39,132 nucleotides of DNA from Anaerolineae bacterium (GTDB lineage: Bacteria > Chloroflexota > Anaerolineae > Promineifilales > Promineifilaceae). Below the pieces are notes generated by a model. That model was not told the DNA's origin. It searched no databases and was given only the letters and a program-made list of their open reading frames with translations. Positions 27,176 to 38,724 of this stretch are shown in pieces. The translations under genes and the position numbers were made by a program. Each line of letters begins with the position of its first letter. The stretch's first letter is position 1. The stretch covers positions 1 to 39,132 of the forward strand of contig WFSA01000129.1 of NCBI GenBank assembly GCA_015486215.1, in the 5' to 3' direction.

Positions 27176-29776
27176 ATGTTAGCAAAACATCGTTTTATTT
27201 GGATAATGGCCGTATTAGCCCTCATACTAATGCTGGCTGTCGGTTGTGGTAAAAAAACATCACAGCCAGAAGAAGCCGTTGAGGAAGAGACTACAGAACA
27301 AGTAGACGAACCCGCAAGCGACGAAGAAGAGGCTGCTGTTGAAGAGACCGCTGCCGATGAAGAAGAAACGGCCGTTGAAGAAGAAGCCGCAGCCGAAGAA
27401 GTCACGCTCACCATCTGGTCATGGCGTGTAGAAGATGAAGACGCATACAACGAAATTTTCGATGTATACGAAGCCGCCCATCCCGGCGTGACCGTTGAAT
27501 TCGTCCCCTTTGTCGCCACCGATTACAACAATATCTTGGCGACTGGTTTGACAGGCGAAGGCGGCCCCGACATCGCCCAACTCCGCGCCTATGGCGGCGT
27601 TCAACCGCTCATCGAAGCAGGGCAGCTGCTCCCGCTTGACGGCGAAATCGAAAGCCTCTCCAACTTCCCCGACGCAATTTTGAAAGGGGCGACAGGGCAG
27701 GCCGACGGCCGTATCTACGGCGTTCCCTTTGGCGTGCAAGCGTTCACCGCTTATTACAACAAAACCATCTTTGACGAACTGGGTCTCACTGAGCCAGAAA
27801 CATGGGATGAATTCATCGCCGTGTTGGACGCATTGCAAGCGGCCGATTACATTCCGATCTCCGCCCCCGCCAAAGATACATGGATGCTGCCCCTCATTCA
27901 CGACGCAGTAGCCGCCCCTCGTTACGGCGGGCCAGAGTTTGAAGCGGCCGTTCTCGCAGGCGAAACGGACTTCACCAATCCCGATTACGTTGCCTCAATC
28001 GGCGTTGTCCAAGATTTGCAGCAATATATGCCCGAAGACATCGTTGGCATCAGCTACGCCGACTCCAAAACCCTCTTCCTCACCGAACAAGCCGGCATTT
28101 TTCTTGGCGGTTCATTCGAGGTCGGCTTCTGGCGTGAAGAAGGTCCCGATATGGATTTAGGCATCTTCCGCGTCCCCGCGCCGCCAGATTCTTTGACGGG
28201 TCCATTGGTTCCCGGCTGGATGGATGGCTCTTACGGTGTCAACGCCCTCAGCGACTCCCCCGACGCGGCCAAAGAGTTGGTCAACTGGATGGGTACACCT
28301 GAGTTCGGCCAAATGTTCACCGAACAGATCAAACAACTCTCCGCCATTCCCGGCATGACCCCCACCGACCCGCTGTTGGCCGAATTTGCCGAACTGTTCG
28401 CCGAATCACCAACCTCATACCTGCATCTCGTCAACTTCCGCTATGGCGATCCATACGGCAGCACCCTGCTGGCCGACGGCATCCAAGCGATGTTCCTTGG
28501 CGATTCTGACCCCGAAACGATTGCCAACGACATTCAGACGGGTGTTTCCCAATGGTTCAATCCCAATGGCGAAGCGAGCGTAGAACCGGCCGAAGCAGAA
28601 CCCGTCACCCTCACCGTCTGGTCATGGCGCACGGAAGATGAAGATGCTTACAACGAAATTTTCGATGTGTACGAAGAAGCCAATCCCAATGTCACCGTTG
28701 AATTTGTCCCCTTCATCGCCACCGATTACAACAACATCCTCGCCACTGGGCTGACGGGCGAAGGCGGCCCCGATGTCGCTCAACTCCGCGCTTATGGCGG
28801 CATTCAGCCGCTCATCGAAGCGGGGCAGCTGCTGCCGCTTGATGGCGAAATCGCCACGCTGGGCAACTTCCCCGATGCGATTTTGAAAGGCGCGTCAGGA
28901 CAGGCAGACGGCCGTGTATATGGTGTACCGTTCGGCGTACAAACCTTCACCGCCTTCTACAACAAAGCGATCTTTGAAGAACTCGGCCTGACTGAGCCGC
29001 AAACATGGGACGAATTCATCGCCGCATTGGACGCGCTTCAAGCTGGCGGCTACATCCCGCTCGCCGTCCCCGCCAAAGATACATGGATGCTGCCGCTCAT
29101 TCACGATGCCGTCGCCGCCCCCCGTTACGGCGGCCCCGAATTTGAAGCCGAAGTGCTTTCTGGCGCGACTGACTTCAACGATCCCGATTACGTCGCCTCC
29201 ATCGCCGTCATTCAGGATTTGCAGCAATACATGCCCGCCGATGTCGTCGGTGTTAGCTACAATGATGCCAAAACCTTATTCTTGACCGAAATGGCCGGCA
29301 TCTTCCTCGGCGGTTCATTCGAGGTCGGCTTCTGGCGCAACGAAGGGCCGGAATTGGACTTAGGTGTTTTCCGCGTTCCCGCGCCGCCAGACTCCCTCGT
29401 CGGCCCCGTCGTTCCCGGCTGGATGGACGGCTCTTACGGCGTAAATGCGTTGAGCGACTCTCCCGACGCGGCCAAAGATTTGGTCGAATGGATGGGTACA
29501 CCAGAGTTTGCCCAACTCTTCACCGTAAAGATCAAACAACTGTCCGCCATGCCCGGCGCACAGCCAGAAGATCCGCTGCTGGCCGAATTCGCCGAACTAT
29601 TCGCCGAATCTCCCGCATCTTATCTGCATCTGGTAAACTTCCGTTACGGTGACCCGTCTGGCAGCACCCTGCTGGCTGACGGCATCCAAGCGATGTTCTT
29701 GGGCGAAGCAACCCCCGAACAGATCGCCGCCGACATTCAAGAAGGTATTTCTCAATGGTTCACCCCCAGCGAGTAA
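27176..29776 (+). CDS. ABC solute-binding lipoprotein with two tandem binding domains
   Basis: A protein of 866 residues, about twice the normal length of an extracellular sugar-binding protein. The lipoprotein signal ends LAVGC with Cys24. An acidic Glu/Ala/Asp tether covers about 31-75. Domain 1 starts at Val76 (VTLTIWSWR) and domain 2 at Val477 (VTLTVWSWR), exactly 401 residues or 1203 bp later. By eye about 88% of the first 100 residues are identical between domains. Both keep GLTGEGGPD, YGVPFGVQ, YYNK/FYNK, KDTWMLP, GIFLGGSFEVGFW and PGWMDGSYGVNALS, so both look functional. A short linker (NPNGEASVEPAEAEP) joins them. It should capture a sugar or muropeptide outside the membrane for the two permeases downstream. 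The ATPase subunit is not in the window. SD AAGGAGG is strong. Confidence 0.93.
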   Translation: MLAKHRFIWIMAVLALILMLAVGCGKKTSQPEEAVEEETTEQVDEPASDEEEAAVEETAADEEETAVEEEAAAEEVTLTIWSWRVEDEDAYNEIFDVYEAAHPGVTVEFVPFVATDYNNILATGLTGEGGPDIAQLRAYGGVQPLIEAGQLLPLDGEIESLSNFPDAILKGATGQADGRIYGVPFGVQAFTAYYNKTIFDELGLTEPETWDEFIAVLDALQAADYIPISAPAKDTWMLPLIHDAVAAPRYGGPEFEAAVLAGETDFTNPDYVASIGVVQDLQQYMPEDIVGISYADSKTLFLTEQAGIFLGGSFEVGFWREEGPDMDLGIFRVPAPPDSLTGPLVPGWMDGSYGVNALSDSPDAAKELVNWMGTPEFGQMFTEQIKQLSAIPGMTPTDPLLAEFAELFAESPTSYLHLVNFRYGDPYGSTLLADGIQAMFLGDSDPETIANDIQTGVSQWFNPNGEASVEPAEAEPVTLTVWSWRTEDEDAYNEIFDVYEEANPNVTVEFVPFIATDYNNILATGLTGEGGPDVAQLRAYGGIQPLIEAGQLLPLDGEIATLGNFPDAILKGASGQADGRVYGVPFGVQTFTAFYNKAIFEELGLTEPQTWDEFIAALDALQAGGYIPLAVPAKDTWMLPLIHDAVAAPRYGGPEFEAEVLSGATDFNDPDYVASIAVIQDLQQYMPADVVGVSYNDAKTLFLTEMAGIFLGGSFEVGFWRNEGPELDLGVFRVPAPPDSLVGPVVPGWMDGSYGVNALSDSPDAAKDLVEWMGTPEFAQLFTVKIKQLSAMPGAQPEDPLLAEFAELFAESPASYLHLVNFRYGDPSGSTLLADGIQAMFLGEATPEQIAADIQEGISQWFTPSE

Positions 29777-31859: not shown

Positions 31860-32909
31860 ATGGCTACATTCAATCAAGTAGATGCGGTTATGCGGCGGGG
31901 GTTAGGGACGGTGTTCCCAACGGCCGTTTTGCTCATCAAGCATCAGGGCGAGACCGTTTACCATCGTGCCTACGGCTGGCTCGACCCCGACGTGGAACGG
32001 CGGCCAACGCAGGTTGACAGCGTGTTCGATTTGGCTTCGCTGACGAAGCTGTTTACCGCGACCGCGTTTATGACGCTGGTTGAGGCGGGGGTGGTTGAAT
32101 TAGAAACGGCCGTTTCCACCATCATTCCCCCATTCGCCCATCCATCCGTCACCTTTCGCCATTTGCTGACTCACACGGCTGGACTGCCCGCGACATGCAA
32201 TCTGTACCGAAACAACGCGTACGCCAACCCGCTAGACGCGCTGTACGACAGGCTTGAGCTCGCCCCCGCCGGCCGTCAATGCGTTTACAGCGATGTCGGC
32301 CTCATTTTATTAGGGGAAGCGGTCGCACGGTTGATGGGGAAACCGCTGTCCGTTTACATGAAAGAAGCGATTTTTGAGCCGTTATCGTTGCACGAAACAG
32401 GTTTTAACCCGCTTGAGCGCGGCATTTCCATTGACCGCATCGTTCCCACCGAATTGTGCGCGTGGCGGCGACGGCGGTGTGTGGGCGAAGTGCATGATGA
32501 AAATGCGTTCGCTTTGGGCGGCGAATCTGGTCACGCGGGCTTGTTTGCGACGGCGCAAGAGGTCGCCGCACTGGGACAGCTTTATCTCAATGGCGGACGG
32601 CATGACGCTGGCCGCCTTTTTTCGCCATCATTGGCGGCGGAGGCGGTGCGCGAGCAGGTTAAACTGGATAACGGCCGTTACGGGCTGGGGTGGATGTTGC
32701 AAAGAGAGAGCGGCAGCCCCATCGGGCAAGCGTTCGGCATGAATAGTTACGGTCACACGGGATTTACAGGCACGTCACTCTGGATCGATCCCGATCAGGA
32801 GATGCTCGTCGTCTTGCTGACCAACCGCGTGTATTACGGCCGTAAGCCCCATCAAATCGTCGCTTTTCGTGCCCGATTGCACGACACGGCGATGGCAGAC
32901 GTGCGATAA
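31860..32909 (+). CDS. Beta-lactamase-fold serine hydrolase, possible muropeptide amidase
   Basis: A protein of 349 residues of the class C beta-lactamase/EstB/AmiE superfamily (PF00144). The catalytic Ser-x-x-Lys is SLTK (about 60-63), the Tyr motif is YSD (about 142-144), and the third motif is HTG in YGHTGFTG near 299. Other family marks are LLTHTAGLP and GLFATAQEVA. No signal peptide is seen, so it acts in the cytoplasm. In Bacillus subtilis a member of this superfamily (AmiE/YbbE), encoded beside murQ, removes L-Ala peptides from MurNAc. The same neighbourhood here suggests an N-acetylmuramyl-L-alanine amidase after import (inference). The SD is weak (TTAGG) and lies against the strong hairpin upstream. 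Confidence 0.8.
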   Translation: MATFNQVDAVMRRGLGTVFPTAVLLIKHQGETVYHRAYGWLDPDVERRPTQVDSVFDLASLTKLFTATAFMTLVEAGVVELETAVSTIIPPFAHPSVTFRHLLTHTAGLPATCNLYRNNAYANPLDALYDRLELAPAGRQCVYSDVGLILLGEAVARLMGKPLSVYMKEAIFEPLSLHETGFNPLERGISIDRIVPTELCAWRRRRCVGEVHDENAFALGGESGHAGLFATAQEVAALGQLYLNGGRHDAGRLFSPSLAAEAVREQVKLDNGRYGLGWMLQRESGSPIGQAFGMNSYGHTGFTGTSLWIDPDQEMLVVLLTNRVYYGRKPHQIVAFRARLHDTAMADVR

Positions 32910-32924
32910 TTTGGAGTTTTGTAT

Positions 32925-34808
32925 ATGCACTATGTACTCGGAGTAGACGGCGGCGGCAGTAAAACGGCCGTTGTCATCCTTAATGAAGAAAAACAAGAGG
33001 CGGGGCGCGGTCAAGGCGGCGTTTCCAACTACCATTTGGCGGGAACGGAGGGCGCAAAAGAGACGCTGCTCAACGCCATGCAGGAAGCGGCCGCTGATGC
33101 AGGCATCACCTTAACCCAAATCACGGCAGCAACATGGGCGTTGGCTGGCGCAGCTCGCCCTGCCGACAGACGAATTTTGCAAGGGATGATGGATGAATTG
33201 CTGCCCGACAGCCGCAGATTGGTCGTGACCGATGCGCTCGCCGCCCTCGTCGGCGGCATCGGCTCGCGGCGCGGCATCGTGCTGATCGCAGGCACGGGGG
33301 CGATTGCGTATGGCGAGAATGGGGATGGCAAGCAGGCGCGGGCGGGCGGCTGGGGGCATATGTTTGATCACGGCTCTGGATACGCTTTGGCACAGGCGGC
33401 ATTACGCGCCGTTATGCAGGCGGAAGACGGCCGTCAAGAGCCGACTGCACTCAGTAAAAAAGTCCAAGCGGCGTTGCAATTGAAAAATATAAGCGGTCTC
33501 GTCAACTGGATTTATGCCCCGCAACGGAATGTGACCGATATTGCCGCCCTCGCGCCGCTTGTTTTGCAAGCGGCCGAAGCGGGCGACATGGCGGCAACGG
33601 CCGTCATCGCTCAAGAAGCGGACGCGCTGGCCGCGTTCGTGGCGGCGACGGCGCGGCGGTTGGGGGTGTGGAAACGGCCGTTTTCCCTTTTGCTCATGGG
33701 CGGCCTGCTAAAAACGGATAACTTTTACCGCCGCGCCGTCTTTCAAGCGGTGCGTACCAAATCGCCGCACGCCCAATTCAGACAGCCGCAAGCGGACGCG
33801 GCCACTGGTGCGGCATTGCTCGCGCTGGAGATGATGGGGCATCCGCTTACGCCATCTGCCGACATCGGCGGCTCGGCGGCCGATTGGGCATCGGAACAGG
33901 GGAATGTCCTTACCGAAGATTTGGATTTACACAGCACGCTGGAAATTGTGGGGTTGATGCACTTGGCGGATCGACAGGCAGTGACGGCCGTTCACTCCTG
34001 TCTGCCCGCCATCGCCCATGCCATTGATGCCATCGCCGCCCGAATGCGGCAGGGGGGGCGATTGATTTATATTGGCGCAGGCACATCCGGCCGCTTAGGC
34101 ACGCTGGACGCTTCTGAATGTCCGCCCACCTTTGGCACCAGCCCCGATTTGGTCACCAGCTTGATGGCTGGTGGCAAGCGGGCGTTGACGCTGGCGATTG
34201 AAGGGGCGGAGGATGATCCAGAGGCGGGGCGGCAGGATGTGGCAGGGTTGGCAGTCGGCAAACTTGATACGGTAGTCGGCATTGCCGCCAGCGGTCGTAC
34301 CCCGTATGTGATCGGCGGTATGGAGGAAGCCAAGCGGCGCGGGGCGTTGACCGTTGCCCTGATCGCCAATCTGCCCGCGCCGCTGGCGGAAATGGCCGAT
34401 CATCTGATTGCGCCGTTGGTCGGGGCGGAGGTGCTGGCTGGCTCCACCCGCTTAAAGGCGGGTACGACGCAAAAGCTGGTTTTGAATATGTTGAGTACGG
34501 GCGTGATGGTGCGTTTGGGTAAAACGTATGGCAATTTGATGGTTGATGTGCGGCAGCATAATAGCAAATTGCAAAATCGGGCGCGGCGCATTGTCCAGCA
34601 AGCGTGCCGCATCAGCGAAAATGAAGCGGCCATCGCCCTTGCGGACGCGGGCGGGCATGTGAAGACGGCTATCGTCGGGGTGCTACTTGGCTGTTCGCCT
34701 GATGAGGCGCGGGGATGTTTGGATGAGGCTGGCGGGGTGGTAAGAACGGCCGTAGGGCGATTGGATATTCCAAAATTAGAGGCTGATTACACAGATGAAC
34801 ATAGATAA
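32925..34808 (+). CDS. Fused MurNAc/GlcNAc kinase and MurNAc-6-phosphate etherase
   Basis: A protein of 627 residues from the ATG at 32925 (GGAG 8 bp upstream; the TTG at 32919 is less likely). Residues 1 to about 315 are a BadF/NagK-type sugar kinase: phosphate-binding DGGGSKT (8-14), GTGAIAYG and GGWGHMFDHGSG. Residues from about 333 to 620 are MurQ: LHSTLEIVGLM, GAGTSGRLG (384-392), the catalytic DASECPPTFG with Glu398, AIEGAEDD, VVGIAASGRTPYV, and KAGTTQKLVLNMLSTG with GKTYGNLMVDV. One chain would thus turn MurNAc into MurNAc-6-P and then into GlcNAc-6-P plus D-lactate. The two enzymes are normally separate (MurK and MurQ). Fusion fits ABC import, which delivers unphosphorylated sugar. 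Confidence 0.93.
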   Translation: MHYVLGVDGGGSKTAVVILNEEKQEAGRGQGGVSNYHLAGTEGAKETLLNAMQEAAADAGITLTQITAATWALAGAARPADRRILQGMMDELLPDSRRLVVTDALAALVGGIGSRRGIVLIAGTGAIAYGENGDGKQARAGGWGHMFDHGSGYALAQAALRAVMQAEDGRQEPTALSKKVQAALQLKNISGLVNWIYAPQRNVTDIAALAPLVLQAAEAGDMAATAVIAQEADALAAFVAATARRLGVWKRPFSLLLMGGLLKTDNFYRRAVFQAVRTKSPHAQFRQPQADAATGAALLALEMMGHPLTPSADIGGSAADWASEQGNVLTEDLDLHSTLEIVGLMHLADRQAVTAVHSCLPAIAHAIDAIAARMRQGGRLIYIGAGTSGRLGTLDASECPPTFGTSPDLVTSLMAGGKRALTLAIEGAEDDPEAGRQDVAGLAVGKLDTVVGIAASGRTPYVIGGMEEAKRRGALTVALIANLPAPLAEMADHLIAPLVGAEVLAGSTRLKAGTTQKLVLNMLSTGVMVRLGKTYGNLMVDVRQHNSKLQNRARRIVQQACRISENEAAIALADAGGHVKTAIVGVLLGCSPDEARGCLDEAGGVVRTAVGRLDIPKLEADYTDEHR

Positions 34809-35280: not shown

Positions 35281-36726
35281 TTAATTTCCGAATAATTTGC
35301 CAAATAGTTCGATGGCCGATGCGGGGGTGGGGAGCAGGAACCAGACCCATCCCAGCAGGACAAAATGGAAGGTGAGGAACCAGCTAAAGAGTGTCCATGC
35401 ACGCAGCTGACGCGGCTTTGCTTTTAGGCCGCGATACCATTTGCGGGTGCGGCCGCTCCATTGTTTGTGGATGAACAACCCCGTGCCGTGCCATACGCCC
35501 CAGATAAAATAGGTCCATGTGAACCCGTGCCACAGCCCGATGGTGATCATCGTCACCAGTTGGGCGATGAAGACGATGAGGGTGGTCGATGGGCGCGGTT
35601 TGCGCTGTAAAAGGGCGCGAGAGAGGGGGGAAAAGACGTATGTTCGCGCCCATGCGCTGAGGGTGGCGTGCCAGTTTTGCCAAAAGGTGGTGATATTAGT
35701 TTGAAAATACGGCCGTCTAAAATTCTCTGGCAGGCGCACCCCAAACAGTAACCCAATCCCAATCGCAATATCGGTGTAGCCGCTGAAATCGAAGTAGAGC
35801 CGCAGGGCGTAGCCGTATAGCAGCAGCCATAACATTCCTGTTGATTCTCCTTGCGCGGCGTTGACGGCCGTCAGCGACATCCCTTGTGCCAATGTATCAG
35901 CAATGACAAATTTTTTGAATGTGCCGATGGCGATGCGCTGTCCCGCTTCGCCGAAGCGGGGGGCGGCGAGACCATGTATGGCGGGCAGGGCGCGTAACTC
36001 TTTGGCAAAATGTTCCACACGGTCGATGGGGCCGGCGATGTAGGCGGGGGCGAATAGGATATAATTGCTGTATTCGCGTAGCGATAAGGCGGGCAAGATG
36101 CCAGATTGACGGTCGCGGATGGTGTGGATGAGACGGAAGGCGACGTAGGAGAAGCCGATCCATGCGAGATTGGCACTGCTTGCCAATGATCCGTCCTGCC
36201 CCATGCGAAGCCGCCATTGACGACTGACAAAAATTGCTGCTGGCTCCCATTTGATGAGGATGAACAGTCCGATGAGGATGAGCAGCCAGCCTGTGAGAGC
36301 TGTATGACGCGTCTTTTTACGAAAGGTGGTGGTGATGGCGGCGGTGATGAAGCCGATGATGAGGAGGGAAACGGCCGTGACCAAGAAGTTCGGCGGTCTG
36401 TCGATGATGCGGTATTCGAGCGGGACGAAGCGGAAGAGGGCGGCGGCGAGCATCAGCCCAAAGAGGAGGGCAAGGGTGCGTTTATCCTCTTGGCTAAGGC
36501 GGCTTTCGGCTGGGCGGGTGAGCTGCCACGAGATGATGACAAGGAGGAGAACGGCCGTTTGCAATAGATAAGCACTAAATCGAATGGGCAGCGGCGGTTG
36601 CAGCCAATAGATGGCAAATACGGAACCGACAAGCAATGCCCATCCGCGCCACTGTTCAGGCAAAAAAGCAGCATATAAAGTGCCAACTGCTATAAAAACG
36701 GCGATGGTGGTGAGGTCGAAAGTCAT
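35281..36726 (-). CDS. MBOAT-family O-acyltransferase
   Basis: A protein of 481 residues from the ATG at 36726 (a TTG at 36738 is also open), with about 11-12 membrane helices. MBOAT landmarks of the AlgI/DltB/PatA group are present: LREYSNYILFAPAYIAGPI, LRLYFDFSGYTDIAIGIGLL, FWQNWHATLSAWARTYVF, and the catalytic His region IGLWHGFTWTYFIWGVWHG. These enzymes move an acyl group from the cytoplasmic side to an extracellular polymer or to a carrier. It follows the SGNH lipoprotein on the same strand, the classical partner that completes transfer outside the membrane. The polymer acylated is not evident. A simple-word repeat (GCAAGTTTGCAGG...) lies just upstream. Confidence 0.9.
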   Translation of the reverse strand: MTFDLTTIAVFIAVGTLYAAFLPEQWRGWALLVGSVFAIYWLQPPLPIRFSAYLLQTAVLLLVIISWQLTRPAESRLSQEDKRTLALLFGLMLAAALFRFVPLEYRIIDRPPNFLVTAVSLLIIGFITAAITTTFRKKTRHTALTGWLLILIGLFILIKWEPAAIFVSRQWRLRMGQDGSLASSANLAWIGFSYVAFRLIHTIRDRQSGILPALSLREYSNYILFAPAYIAGPIDRVEHFAKELRALPAIHGLAAPRFGEAGQRIAIGTFKKFVIADTLAQGMSLTAVNAAQGESTGMLWLLLYGYALRLYFDFSGYTDIAIGIGLLFGVRLPENFRRPYFQTNITTFWQNWHATLSAWARTYVFSPLSRALLQRKPRPSTTLIVFIAQLVTMITIGLWHGFTWTYFIWGVWHGTGLFIHKQWSGRTRKWYRGLKAKPRQLRAWTLFSWFLTFHFVLLGWVWFLLPTPASAIELFGKLFGN

Positions 36727-36736
36727 GGGATGGGGC

Positions 36737-36838
36737 AAGCAGCAAGTTTGCAGGTTTGCCGGTTTGCAAGTACGCAGATGGTATTAGGCCATTTATGAAA
36801 AATAATTATACGTTGTACACCTGCCACTTGCATACTTG
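36737..36838. repeat. TTTGCAGG / ACTTGCA inverted-word spacer
   Basis: GCAAGTTTGCAGGTTTGCCG and neighbours face CACTTGCATACTTGCTACTTG. It fills the SGNH-MBOAT spacer and could form a hairpin in the shared message. Confidence 0.5.
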
Positions 36839-37876
36839 CTACTTGCACACTTCCTTCCATATACGGTCAATCATCATAATAATTGTTAGATTGTGCATGG
36901 AGTGGCCTTTTGTGTATACGTCGTCGAGGGTGTAATCGTGGACGAGCGGCCCATTTAGGTGAACATTGTCTCCTTCTTTGATGCCGCGATTGGGGAGGGT
37001 GGCGGCGAGCAGGTCGAAATCAACGAGCGGGACTTGAAGGTCAACGGCCGTTTGTCGAATCGCATTATTATTGAAATTATCTTCCCCTTCAAAGCGATCC
37101 GCTTTGGTCAAGAGCAGGGGAACGATCCCTTGATCGAGGGTGTATTGAATGACCTCGCGGTAATAGGTGTCGAAGGAGGGGTCTTGATCGTTGGAGCCGA
37201 GATGAATGATCATAATGCTGGGATTATTGTATCGAATTTCGCAATCGATCATCGTTTCGTTCGGTTCGCACCACTCTTTATCCGCCCATTGCGGATCAAA
37301 AACGCCCCATGCCCGCAACCCAATTTTGATGCCTACGCCGTACCGATCCCATGAGCCGGGAAAATGGTCAATGGCTGGTTGGAGATATTCATAAGGCCCC
37401 AAATTGTAACTGCCCGGTACGTCATAGCGGGTGAGAAAGTCCCCATTGGCGATGATGCTGTCGCCTAATTTGGAAAAACTGTTTGGATCGCGGCCAAGCG
37501 TCTGCCCCAATGCGTATATTTCCTGCATATGGGCGACGGCGGCATCATCCATCAATAAAATTTGGGAAAGCGGGATGCCATTCAGCATCGGTTCGGCTGT
37601 GGGTGCGGGGATGGGAGGGGTATCTGTTGGTGTTGCGGCCGTTTTCGTTTCGCTCTCCTCTGCTACAGGGATGGGTGTTAGCGTGGGGGGAGGCGGCATG
37701 GTGGGGACTGCCGTCGGCAACAGTTTGGGTGTGGATGTGGGAATGGGGGGAACGGCCGTCGGCTGAACTGCCGCCAGCTCAACAGTCGGCACAGGTGCAA
37801 GTGCATCCTTCCCCCCGCACCCGATGAGCAAGAGCATCAAAAAAACAAAAAGAGCCGCACGGCGGATATTGTTCAT
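36839..37876 (-). CDS. SGNH/GDSL-fold lipoprotein, O-acylation partner
   Basis: A protein of 345 residues starting at MNNIRRAALF. The open frame extends 63 codons upstream, but that part is AATGAACA-type repeat DNA and overlaps the microprotein in another frame. The lipoprotein signal ends LLIGC with Cys20. A Pro/Thr-rich tether covers about 25-95. The SGNH domain has Ser140 in KLGDSIIANG, Asn229 in HLGSND and Asp303/His306 in GDNVHL, giving a complete Ser-Asp-His set. AlgX/AlgJ, PatB and DltD are SGNH-fold proteins that work with MBOAT partners outside the membrane. It precedes the MBOAT gene (35281-36726) on the same strand. Confidence 0.88.
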   Translation of the reverse strand: MNNIRRAALFVFLMLLLIGCGGKDALAPVPTVELAAVQPTAVPPIPTSTPKLLPTAVPTMPPPPTLTPIPVAEESETKTAATPTDTPPIPAPTAEPMLNGIPLSQILLMDDAAVAHMQEIYALGQTLGRDPNSFSKLGDSIIANGDFLTRYDVPGSYNLGPYEYLQPAIDHFPGSWDRYGVGIKIGLRAWGVFDPQWADKEWCEPNETMIDCEIRYNNPSIMIIHLGSNDQDPSFDTYYREVIQYTLDQGIVPLLLTKADRFEGEDNFNNNAIRQTAVDLQVPLVDFDLLAATLPNRGIKEGDNVHLNGPLVHDYTLDDVYTKGHSMHNLTIIMMIDRIWKEVCK

Positions 37877-37920
37877 TGTTAATCGTTCATCATTCATTGT
37901 TAATTGTTCATTGTTCATTG
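37877..37920. repeat. ATTGTTCATT/AATGAACA word array
   Basis: Tandem variants of TTGTTCATTGTTAAT lie between microprotein and SGNH genes. A complementary AATGAATAATGAACA array lies at 38047-38110, after the tetR gene. Confidence 0.55.
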
Positions 37921-38034
37921 TTAAAACCCTTGATAAATCCATTGGGGAGTAAGATCGCTGGAGACGATGATGAGGAGCAAAATGAGGATAGAAAGTAGAA
38001 GAGAGAGAACGGTTTCGCGGGAGAATAAGCGCAT
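37921..38034 (-). CDS. 37-residue membrane microprotein with DltX-like C-terminus (candidate)
   Basis: An open frame on the minus strand from ATG (38034) to TAA. It encodes MRLFSRETV, a hydrophobic helix of about 17 residues (LLLSILILLLIIVS), then SDLTPQ and the C-terminus WIYQGF. DltX is a similar-sized one-helix protein of the D-alanylation system and ends in a conserved F-x-Y-x-x-F motif whose Tyr carries the acyl group between DltB and DltD. Here W-I-Y-Q-G-F ends the protein in the same way, and the next genes are SGNH (DltD-like) and MBOAT (DltB-like). The stop is 44 bp before the SGNH start. No clear SD is visible, which is the main weakness. It is too short for statistical gene calling. 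Confidence 0.6.
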   Translation of the reverse strand: MRLFSRETVLSLLLSILILLLIIVSSDLTPQWIYQGF

Positions 38035-38046
38035 GGAACGGAGTTA

Positions 38047-38110
38047 AATAATGAATAATGAACAATTAATAATGAATGGTGAGCGGGAACCTTTGTTCAT
38101 TATTCATTGC
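38047..38110. repeat. AATGAACA / TGTTCATT hairpin array
   Basis: AATGAATAATGAACAATTAA is followed by TTTGTTCATTATTCATT, a strong A/T-rich hairpin with TGCTTTT after it. On the minus strand it follows tetR and precedes the microprotein, so it may terminate or process the message. Confidence 0.55.
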
Positions 38111-38112
38111 TT

Positions 38113-38724
38113 TTAGTAATGGGCGACGGAGCGGAGGATGAAGGTTGTCGTGTCGTGAACGGTCGCTTTTTCTATCCGCTCTGCGTCGGGCTGTTTGAGT
38201 AAGTTGAGGATGACCTCATCAATGCCGCCAGCGAGAATTTCGGCTGCCAAACGGCCGTTTTGCGGTGGAATATGTGTTAATCGTATTGCCTCATCAATGG
38301 GGCGTTGCCAGATAGCGGTTAAACTGTCACGAAACTTCTCCCGTTCGGCGGCCAATGAGGGAATCGTGTCTACGCTGCCGCTGAGAAGCAGTTGGATGAC
38401 GGCCGGCTCAAAGAGGGCGATGTTGATATATGCCTGTACACCTGCCTGCATCTGTTTGGGAAAGGTGGCACGGCCGTTTACCGCTTGTCGTAAGGATTGC
38501 AATAGAAAATCGGCCGTCTCTTCATATAGATGGAGAAAGAGCGTCTCTTTGTCGGGAAAGTAAAAGTAGAATGTGCCGATGGCGACATTGGCTTCATTCA
38601 CGATGTCGCGGACGGTGGCCGCGTAGTATCCTTTTTTTGCGAATACGCGCACGGCCGTTTGCATCATCGCCGTGCGCTTGGCATCCTTTTTCTTGCGTGT
38701 TTTTTCTGTGCTTTTATAAGCCAT
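38113..38724 (-). CDS. TetR-family transcriptional regulator
   Basis: A protein of 203 residues. A very basic N-terminus (TEKTRKKKDAKR) precedes the TetR helix-turn-helix (about 16-62): TAVRVFAKKGYYAATVRDIV and ANVAIGTFYFYFPDKETLF. The C-terminal helical domain (about 70-200) is the ligand-binding and dimer region; it resembles the group often found near lipid or efflux genes, but the ligand is not readable. It lies upstream of the microprotein/SGNH/MBOAT genes on the same strand and may control them. A MITE copy lies about 75 bp upstream of its start. Confidence 0.88.
   Translation of the reverse strand: MAYKSTEKTRKKKDAKRTAMMQTAVRVFAKKGYYAATVRDIVNEANVAIGTFYFYFPDKETLFLHLYEETADFLLQSLRQAVNGRATFPKQMQAGVQAYINIALFEPAVIQLLLSGSVDTIPSLAAEREKFRDSLTAIWQRPIDEAIRLTHIPPQNGRLAAEILAGGIDEVILNLLKQPDAERIEKATVHDTTTFILRSVAHY

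Follow-up and report, generated by a model that had tools for sequence, protein, structure and literature searches.

A DltX-like microprotein gene accompanies DltB-like MBOAT and SGNH lipoprotein genes in Anaerolineae

The motif of the tyrosine acyl shuttle was reportedly defined in a paper of 2023. The shuttle has been described in two forms, as a microprotein of the Dlt operon or as a tail fused to the MBOAT (PMC12148441). In non-Dlt MBOATs the Tyr hexapeptide is carried on two extra C-terminal helices, whereas DltB is without these helices and uses DltX; according to the same 2025 paper, non-Dlt MBOAT-SGNH pathways have no DltX-like microprotein (PMC12148441). Acyl-Tyr intermediates in PatA and DltX have been described, as has the transfer of the acyl group from the carrier to DltB (PMC12148441, PMC11035591).

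The window analyzed here, a stretch of 39,132 nucleotides, is one entire contig of a 4.1 Mb assembly (G000) which is 96% complete and contains a single MBOAT in the whole genome. This is a metagenome-type assembly in which genes on separate contigs are grouped by binning, and the sampled genomes of relatives are also mostly metagenome assemblies. The gene order on the minus strand is X, followed by the SGNH lipoprotein and the MBOAT, and the following features were identified:

37921..38034, minus strand: X, a DltX-like microprotein of 37 amino acids with the C-terminus PQWIYQGF (ORF list, class-wide profile matches and codon constraint)
37924..37941, minus strand: WIYQGF acyl-shuttle hexapeptide, with the Tyr34 codon at 37933-37935 (motif function from PMC12148441)
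36839..37876, minus strand: SGNH-fold lipoprotein with lipobox LIGC, Ser140/Asp303/His306 and a GSND block (residues read, Pfam, AlphaFold model and fold searches)
35281..36738, minus strand: DltB-like MBOAT without the C-terminal Tyr motif, with His357 and His404 (Pfam/NCBIfam, structure searches, alignments and AlphaFold model)

The frame of X runs from ATG to TAA and translates as MRLFSRETVLSLLLSILILLLIIVSSDLTPQWIYQGF. The N-terminus is basic and is followed by a single hydrophobic transmembrane helix and the C-terminal WIYQGF; the positive-inside rule predicts an outward-facing C-terminus, like that of DltX. The 37-codon frame with its helix and terminal residues, as reported in the preliminary description of this DNA, was found to be correct, and it is conserved in relatives. 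For the MBOAT an alternative ATG start is possible at 36726.

A gene for a TetR-family regulator (window 38113-38724) lies immediately upstream of X and in its orientation, its product being weakly nearest to the fatty-acid regulators FadR and FasR and far under their NCBIfam cut-offs. Short repeats of the AATGAACAATTAACAATGA type are found on either side of the microprotein gene, at 37870-37920 and 38045-38110. At 31860-34808 the gene for a beta-lactamase-family serine hydrolase adjoins that for a fused sugar kinase (BadF type)/SIS-domain protein; these genes resemble MurNAc-6-P etherase recycling genes and are convergent with the MBOAT gene. Positions 27176-29776 encode an 866-aa sugar-binding lipoprotein, apparently with two copies of the binding domain in tandem.

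The distribution of X was investigated with a profile built from 20 peptides and a match threshold of E<1e-5. Matches were obtained in 94 of the 396 sampled genomes of the class, which is called Anaerolineae on the basis of the titles of the matching records, while in the 400 genomes of the phylum that were searched, matches outside the class were all weak (E about 0.005). Scanning of GTDB, with one genome per species, revealed 133 confirmed relatives of X. The best 80 of these 133 are Chloroflexota by label, except for a few uncultured-bacterium records and one labelled Pleurocapsa, and the labels among the matches include Anaerolineae, Anaerolineales, Thermoflexales, Caldilineae and Ardenticatenaceae. 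Many families retain the frame. In the family of the host the MBOAT is present in 33 of 52 genomes, and most family genomes with the MBOAT and enough contig have an upstream frame ending in PQWIYQ[GN]F. No relatives were found in a genome-wide scan with the SGNH protein as query, and the profiles of the MBOAT and of X were used to reach relatives instead.

The MBOAT partner named in the preliminary description was verified by its match to Pfam MBOAT (E 1.6e-22) and by structural matches to DltB. When compared by sequence with solved structures, it matched DltB entries only (HMMER E 1.7e-45). The AlphaFold model (pLDDT 95.2) aligned with DltB at Z 31.6 and an rmsd of 3.6 over 398 residues, with the next family at Z 24.6. 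In DltB, His289 and His336 are located at the active site and Lys312 contacts DltC (PMC11035591). The two histidines align with His357 and His404 of the window MBOAT, both invariant in 51 relatives, while Lys312 aligns with Lys380, a position occupied by Lys or Arg in 30 of the 51. Against the DltB equivalog of NCBIfam, TIGR04091, the protein scored 224.5 bits, below the cut-off of 375.

The window MBOAT ends in ELFGKLFGN, and it is without the Tyr motif and the last two helices found at the C-terminus of other prokaryotic MBOATs. MBOATs of the X type stop 69-70 aa past the last HG (69 aa in the window protein), whereas fused-motif MBOATs of the same class stop 132-141 aa past it and carry FIYFQF or FVYQGF. 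As read from the tail lengths, this is the same difference as that given for DltB versus other MBOATs (PMC12148441). For a count of the two arrangements, distinct MBOATs flanked by 2.5 kb or more of sequence on each side were used. X was nearby in 68 of 70 motif-less MBOATs, and both genomes with the two exceptions have X on another contig; of ten fused-motif MBOATs, nine had no X nearby and one did. The latter belongs to cluster L116, in which a third MBOAT, a motif-less one, is the neighbour of X. Where X was found apart from any MBOAT, an X-type MBOAT was present elsewhere in the genome in 5/5 genomes tested. With a near-invariant-ended frame so regularly beside motif-less MBOATs, the grouping of X, MBOAT and SGNH protein is beyond chance, and the proposal that Chloroflexota have a DltX-like microprotein which works with an SGNH protein and a DltB-like MBOAT is supported. 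Two fused-motif MBOATs beside one X-type MBOAT and its X make up a single cluster at L116:2522-10288.

Counting from the ATG at 37876, residues Ser140, Asp303 and His306 of the SGNH lipoprotein are as previously listed, and the window copy has GDS. Its AlphaFold model (pLDDT 87.8) has the predicted SGNH fold and matched many SGNH enzymes (best Z 16.1); by triad and fold, the protein has the Ser-Asp-His character of an SGNH transferase in the role of DltD. It was not recognised as DltD by Pfam. DltD was absent among the fold-search matches listed for the model, which does not count against likeness to DltD. The nucleophile position is Cys (GDC, not GDS) in 20 of the 55 SGNH lipoproteins of relatives, examples being L168:8653-9594, L171:8730-9773 and L215:8812-9858, and some are also without the Asn or His blocks. 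Given this Cys, the SGNH lipoproteins of relatives may not all be transferases. The SGNH lipoprotein of one relative is fused to a LysM domain (L036:2479-3384), which hints at a cell-wall or peptidoglycan location.

A second SGNH-like protein, Y, has an N-terminal membrane segment and the motifs GDS, YNLGYP and HLTP; its orthologue in the genome of the window was identified on contig C110 (510 bits). In most relatives the gene just before X encodes Z, a small Cys-containing lipoprotein of about 125 aa with weak Pfam matches only (seen at 75 related loci, among them L168:5600-5998). In the genome of the window Z is found at C311:6370-6714, on another contig, and the TetR gene occupies its place beside X.

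Known FAALs supply PKS/NRPS or lipid pathways. In many relatives the cluster that contains X and the MBOAT also encodes an ACP (about 82 aa) and a ligase (about 565 aa), frequent orders being X-MBOAT-Y-ACP-FAAL and X-MBOAT-Y-SGNH-ACP-FAAL. The best solved relatives of the cluster ligase in the PDB were all FAALs, matched over the full length (3kxw/3lnv, 3pbk, FadD32). In all three cluster ligases tested, the top two NCBIfam models were fatty acyl-AMP ligase, under its curated cut-off, and long-chain-fatty-acid--CoA ligase. The preliminary description had stated that DltA and DltC are missing. This holds for the window contig, on which no ligase or carrier gene was found, but elsewhere the genome has a FAAL orthologue (C62:4620-6260, 818.8 bits) and an orthologue of the module-type ACP on contig C152 (113 bits, the next carrier having 34 bits). 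The best match to the DltA model TIGR01734 in this genome reached 292 bits, where the cut-off is 560; it lies in a frame of 1131 aa that also encodes a PP-binding domain and is not a true member. The DltC model TIGR01688 gave no match in the genome, where a different PP-binding carrier is present. A pair of AMP-ligase and carrier genes on contig C13 was considered as partner and rejected, its carrier having 34 versus 113 bits on the module profiles and its gene setting being different, with an apparent asparagine synthase.

Among the 396 genomes of the class, 88 have both X and FAAL, 6 have X only, 10 have FAAL only and 292 have neither (Fisher p about 1e-68, a value not corrected for phylogeny). 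Presence of the X-type MBOAT agrees with that of FAAL in 48 of 52 family genomes (27 both, 21 neither), and several of the disagreements were incomplete genomes or G019, which has FAAL, ACP and fused-motif MBOATs. A second set of loci has X immediately after the FAAL gene with the MBOAT not adjacent. At L150, L151, L154, L189 and L218, X is located after FAAL and before hypA/hypB/hypF-like hydrogenase maturation genes; G272, one genome with this arrangement, has its MBOAT elsewhere. A 647-aa frame ending in X (L125/L145) was considered as a fusion and rejected, being an overlapping frame across the FAAL gene.

A tyrosine acyl relay of the Dlt type, with its parts (FAAL, ACP, MBOAT, X and SGNH) scattered in this genome, is the reading that we hold with good confidence. 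Like DltX in the cell walls of Gram-positive bacteria, X most likely passes an acyl group from the membrane enzyme to the outside one. The FAAL of contig C62 would activate a carboxylic acid and load the dedicated ACP of contig C152, from which the window MBOAT would accept the acyl group at the cytoplasmic side and deliver it via the His357/His404 site to Tyr34 of X. From X it would move to the catalytic Ser of an SGNH protein (the lipoprotein of the window, the membrane-anchored protein of C110, or both), and this protein would esterify an extracellular or cell-wall acceptor. We infer in which order the group is transferred, what types of acyl group and acceptor are involved, and that the scattered genes cooperate; the genes on C62, C152 and C110 are putative members, assigned by orthology and binning. 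The activated acid is probably a fatty or other medium or long acyl acid, and a non-amino acyl group is probable from the ligase family.

The preliminary description had proposed a minimal relay of three parts, MBOAT, X and SGNH protein, drawing acetyl groups from acetyl-CoA like PatA/PatB and operating without ligase or carrier. PatA does take acetyl-CoA directly (PMC12148441), and such a relay would agree with the gene content of the window contig taken by itself. The closest relatives of the MBOAT, however, adjoin ACP and FAAL; orthologues of both are present in the same genome, together with a second SGNH protein, and are co-distributed with X, the FAAL and X distributions being nearly identical; and the MBOAT is nearest to DltB, whose acyl group comes from a carrier. 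An acetyl-CoA donor is consequently unlikely, and the carrier-fed relay is preferred to the minimal one.

Conservation of X was examined at the codon level. The last eight codons showed a pN/pS of 0.039 in 114 distinct nucleotide sequences, a set which includes loci chosen by the pattern QWIYQGF, and changes were almost confined to third positions. The motif count was redone on profile-found copies of X alone (60 distinct), of which 59 have Tyr at position -4, the lone exception being a frame that ends at Tyr. The matter on which the preliminary description had made its case depend was thereby settled in its favour: related genomes conserve the frame, and the amino acids of its terminal motif are fixed while the third positions of the codons vary. 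On the evidence of its sequence, X is a real, strongly conserved gene. It is too short for routine annotation and without a curated family. No sequence family model connected X with DltX: a Pfam scan of 20 members gave no DltX match at E<=10, a search in which HMMER filters can lose weak matches of very short proteins, and the window copy gave no match to NCBIfam at E<=0.1. Comparison of X with PDB sequences returned composition-driven matches only.

X could also serve in structure or assembly only, joining the MBOAT to the SGNH protein, its Tyr being no acyl carrier. DltX does join DltB to DltD (PMC12148441), and the membrane-spanning part of X is conserved too, but the invariant part is the outward Tyr hexapeptide, a motif which is fused onto other MBOATs and for which, in PatA, an acyl-Tyr intermediate has been shown (PMC12148441); a purely structural role is thus rather improbable. 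That X is a chance ORF in DNA conserved as a regulatory or intergenic element, as might be suspected from a short frame unrecognised by curated families and flanked by short repeats, is refuted, with next to no probability left to it, by the third-position variation, the low pN/pS of the last eight codons, the retention across many families and the fixed Tyr motif in profile-found copies.

The carrier-fed tyrosine relay shares with Dlt a stand-alone microprotein with a single transmembrane segment and a C-terminal aromatic-x-Tyr-x-x-Phe, adjoining a DltB-like MBOAT that is missing the last two helices, as well as a carrier protein, an adenylate-forming ligase and an SGNH transferase. It differs in that the ligase is a FAAL and not DltA, the carrier is unrecognised by the DltC model, SGNH lipoprotein(s) and a membrane SGNH protein take the place of a recognised DltD, the host belongs to the Chloroflexota, and the genes are scattered in this genome. 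The system works like Dlt, yet it is no Dlt operon or system, since the DltA and DltB-equivalog cut-offs were not reached and DltC gave no match. With PatA/PatB, AlgI/AlgJ/AlgX and WssI it has in common an MBOAT, an SGNH protein and a C-terminal hexapeptide of the acyl-Tyr type. In those systems the MBOAT itself carries the motif, on two additional helices, whereas here a separate peptide carries it; and PatA has been shown to use acetyl-CoA as donor, whereas here an ACP/FAAL pair is present. The cluster ligase resembles FAALs in matching their structures and differs from them in being tied to an MBOAT-SGNH export relay. In the literature no account was found of a FAAL with an MBOAT or DltB relay; searches on Anaerolineae and microprotein returned nothing, and those on Chloroflexi and D-alanylation unrelated papers only.

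A pathway not described before may be widespread in the Anaerolineae which exports fatty acyl groups, rather than D-alanyl or acetyl groups, by way of FAAL, ACP, MBOAT and a separately encoded microprotein with the shuttle Tyr, onto an envelope polymer or protein, a proposal that we put forward tentatively and at somewhat less than even odds. The separate shuttle microprotein is now seen in another phylum and with another type of acyl activation. The Anaerolineae allow split and fused shuttles to be compared as they occur in nature, at times within one gene cluster, and the system provides a route to a new envelope modification in a phylum with a poorly understood cell surface.
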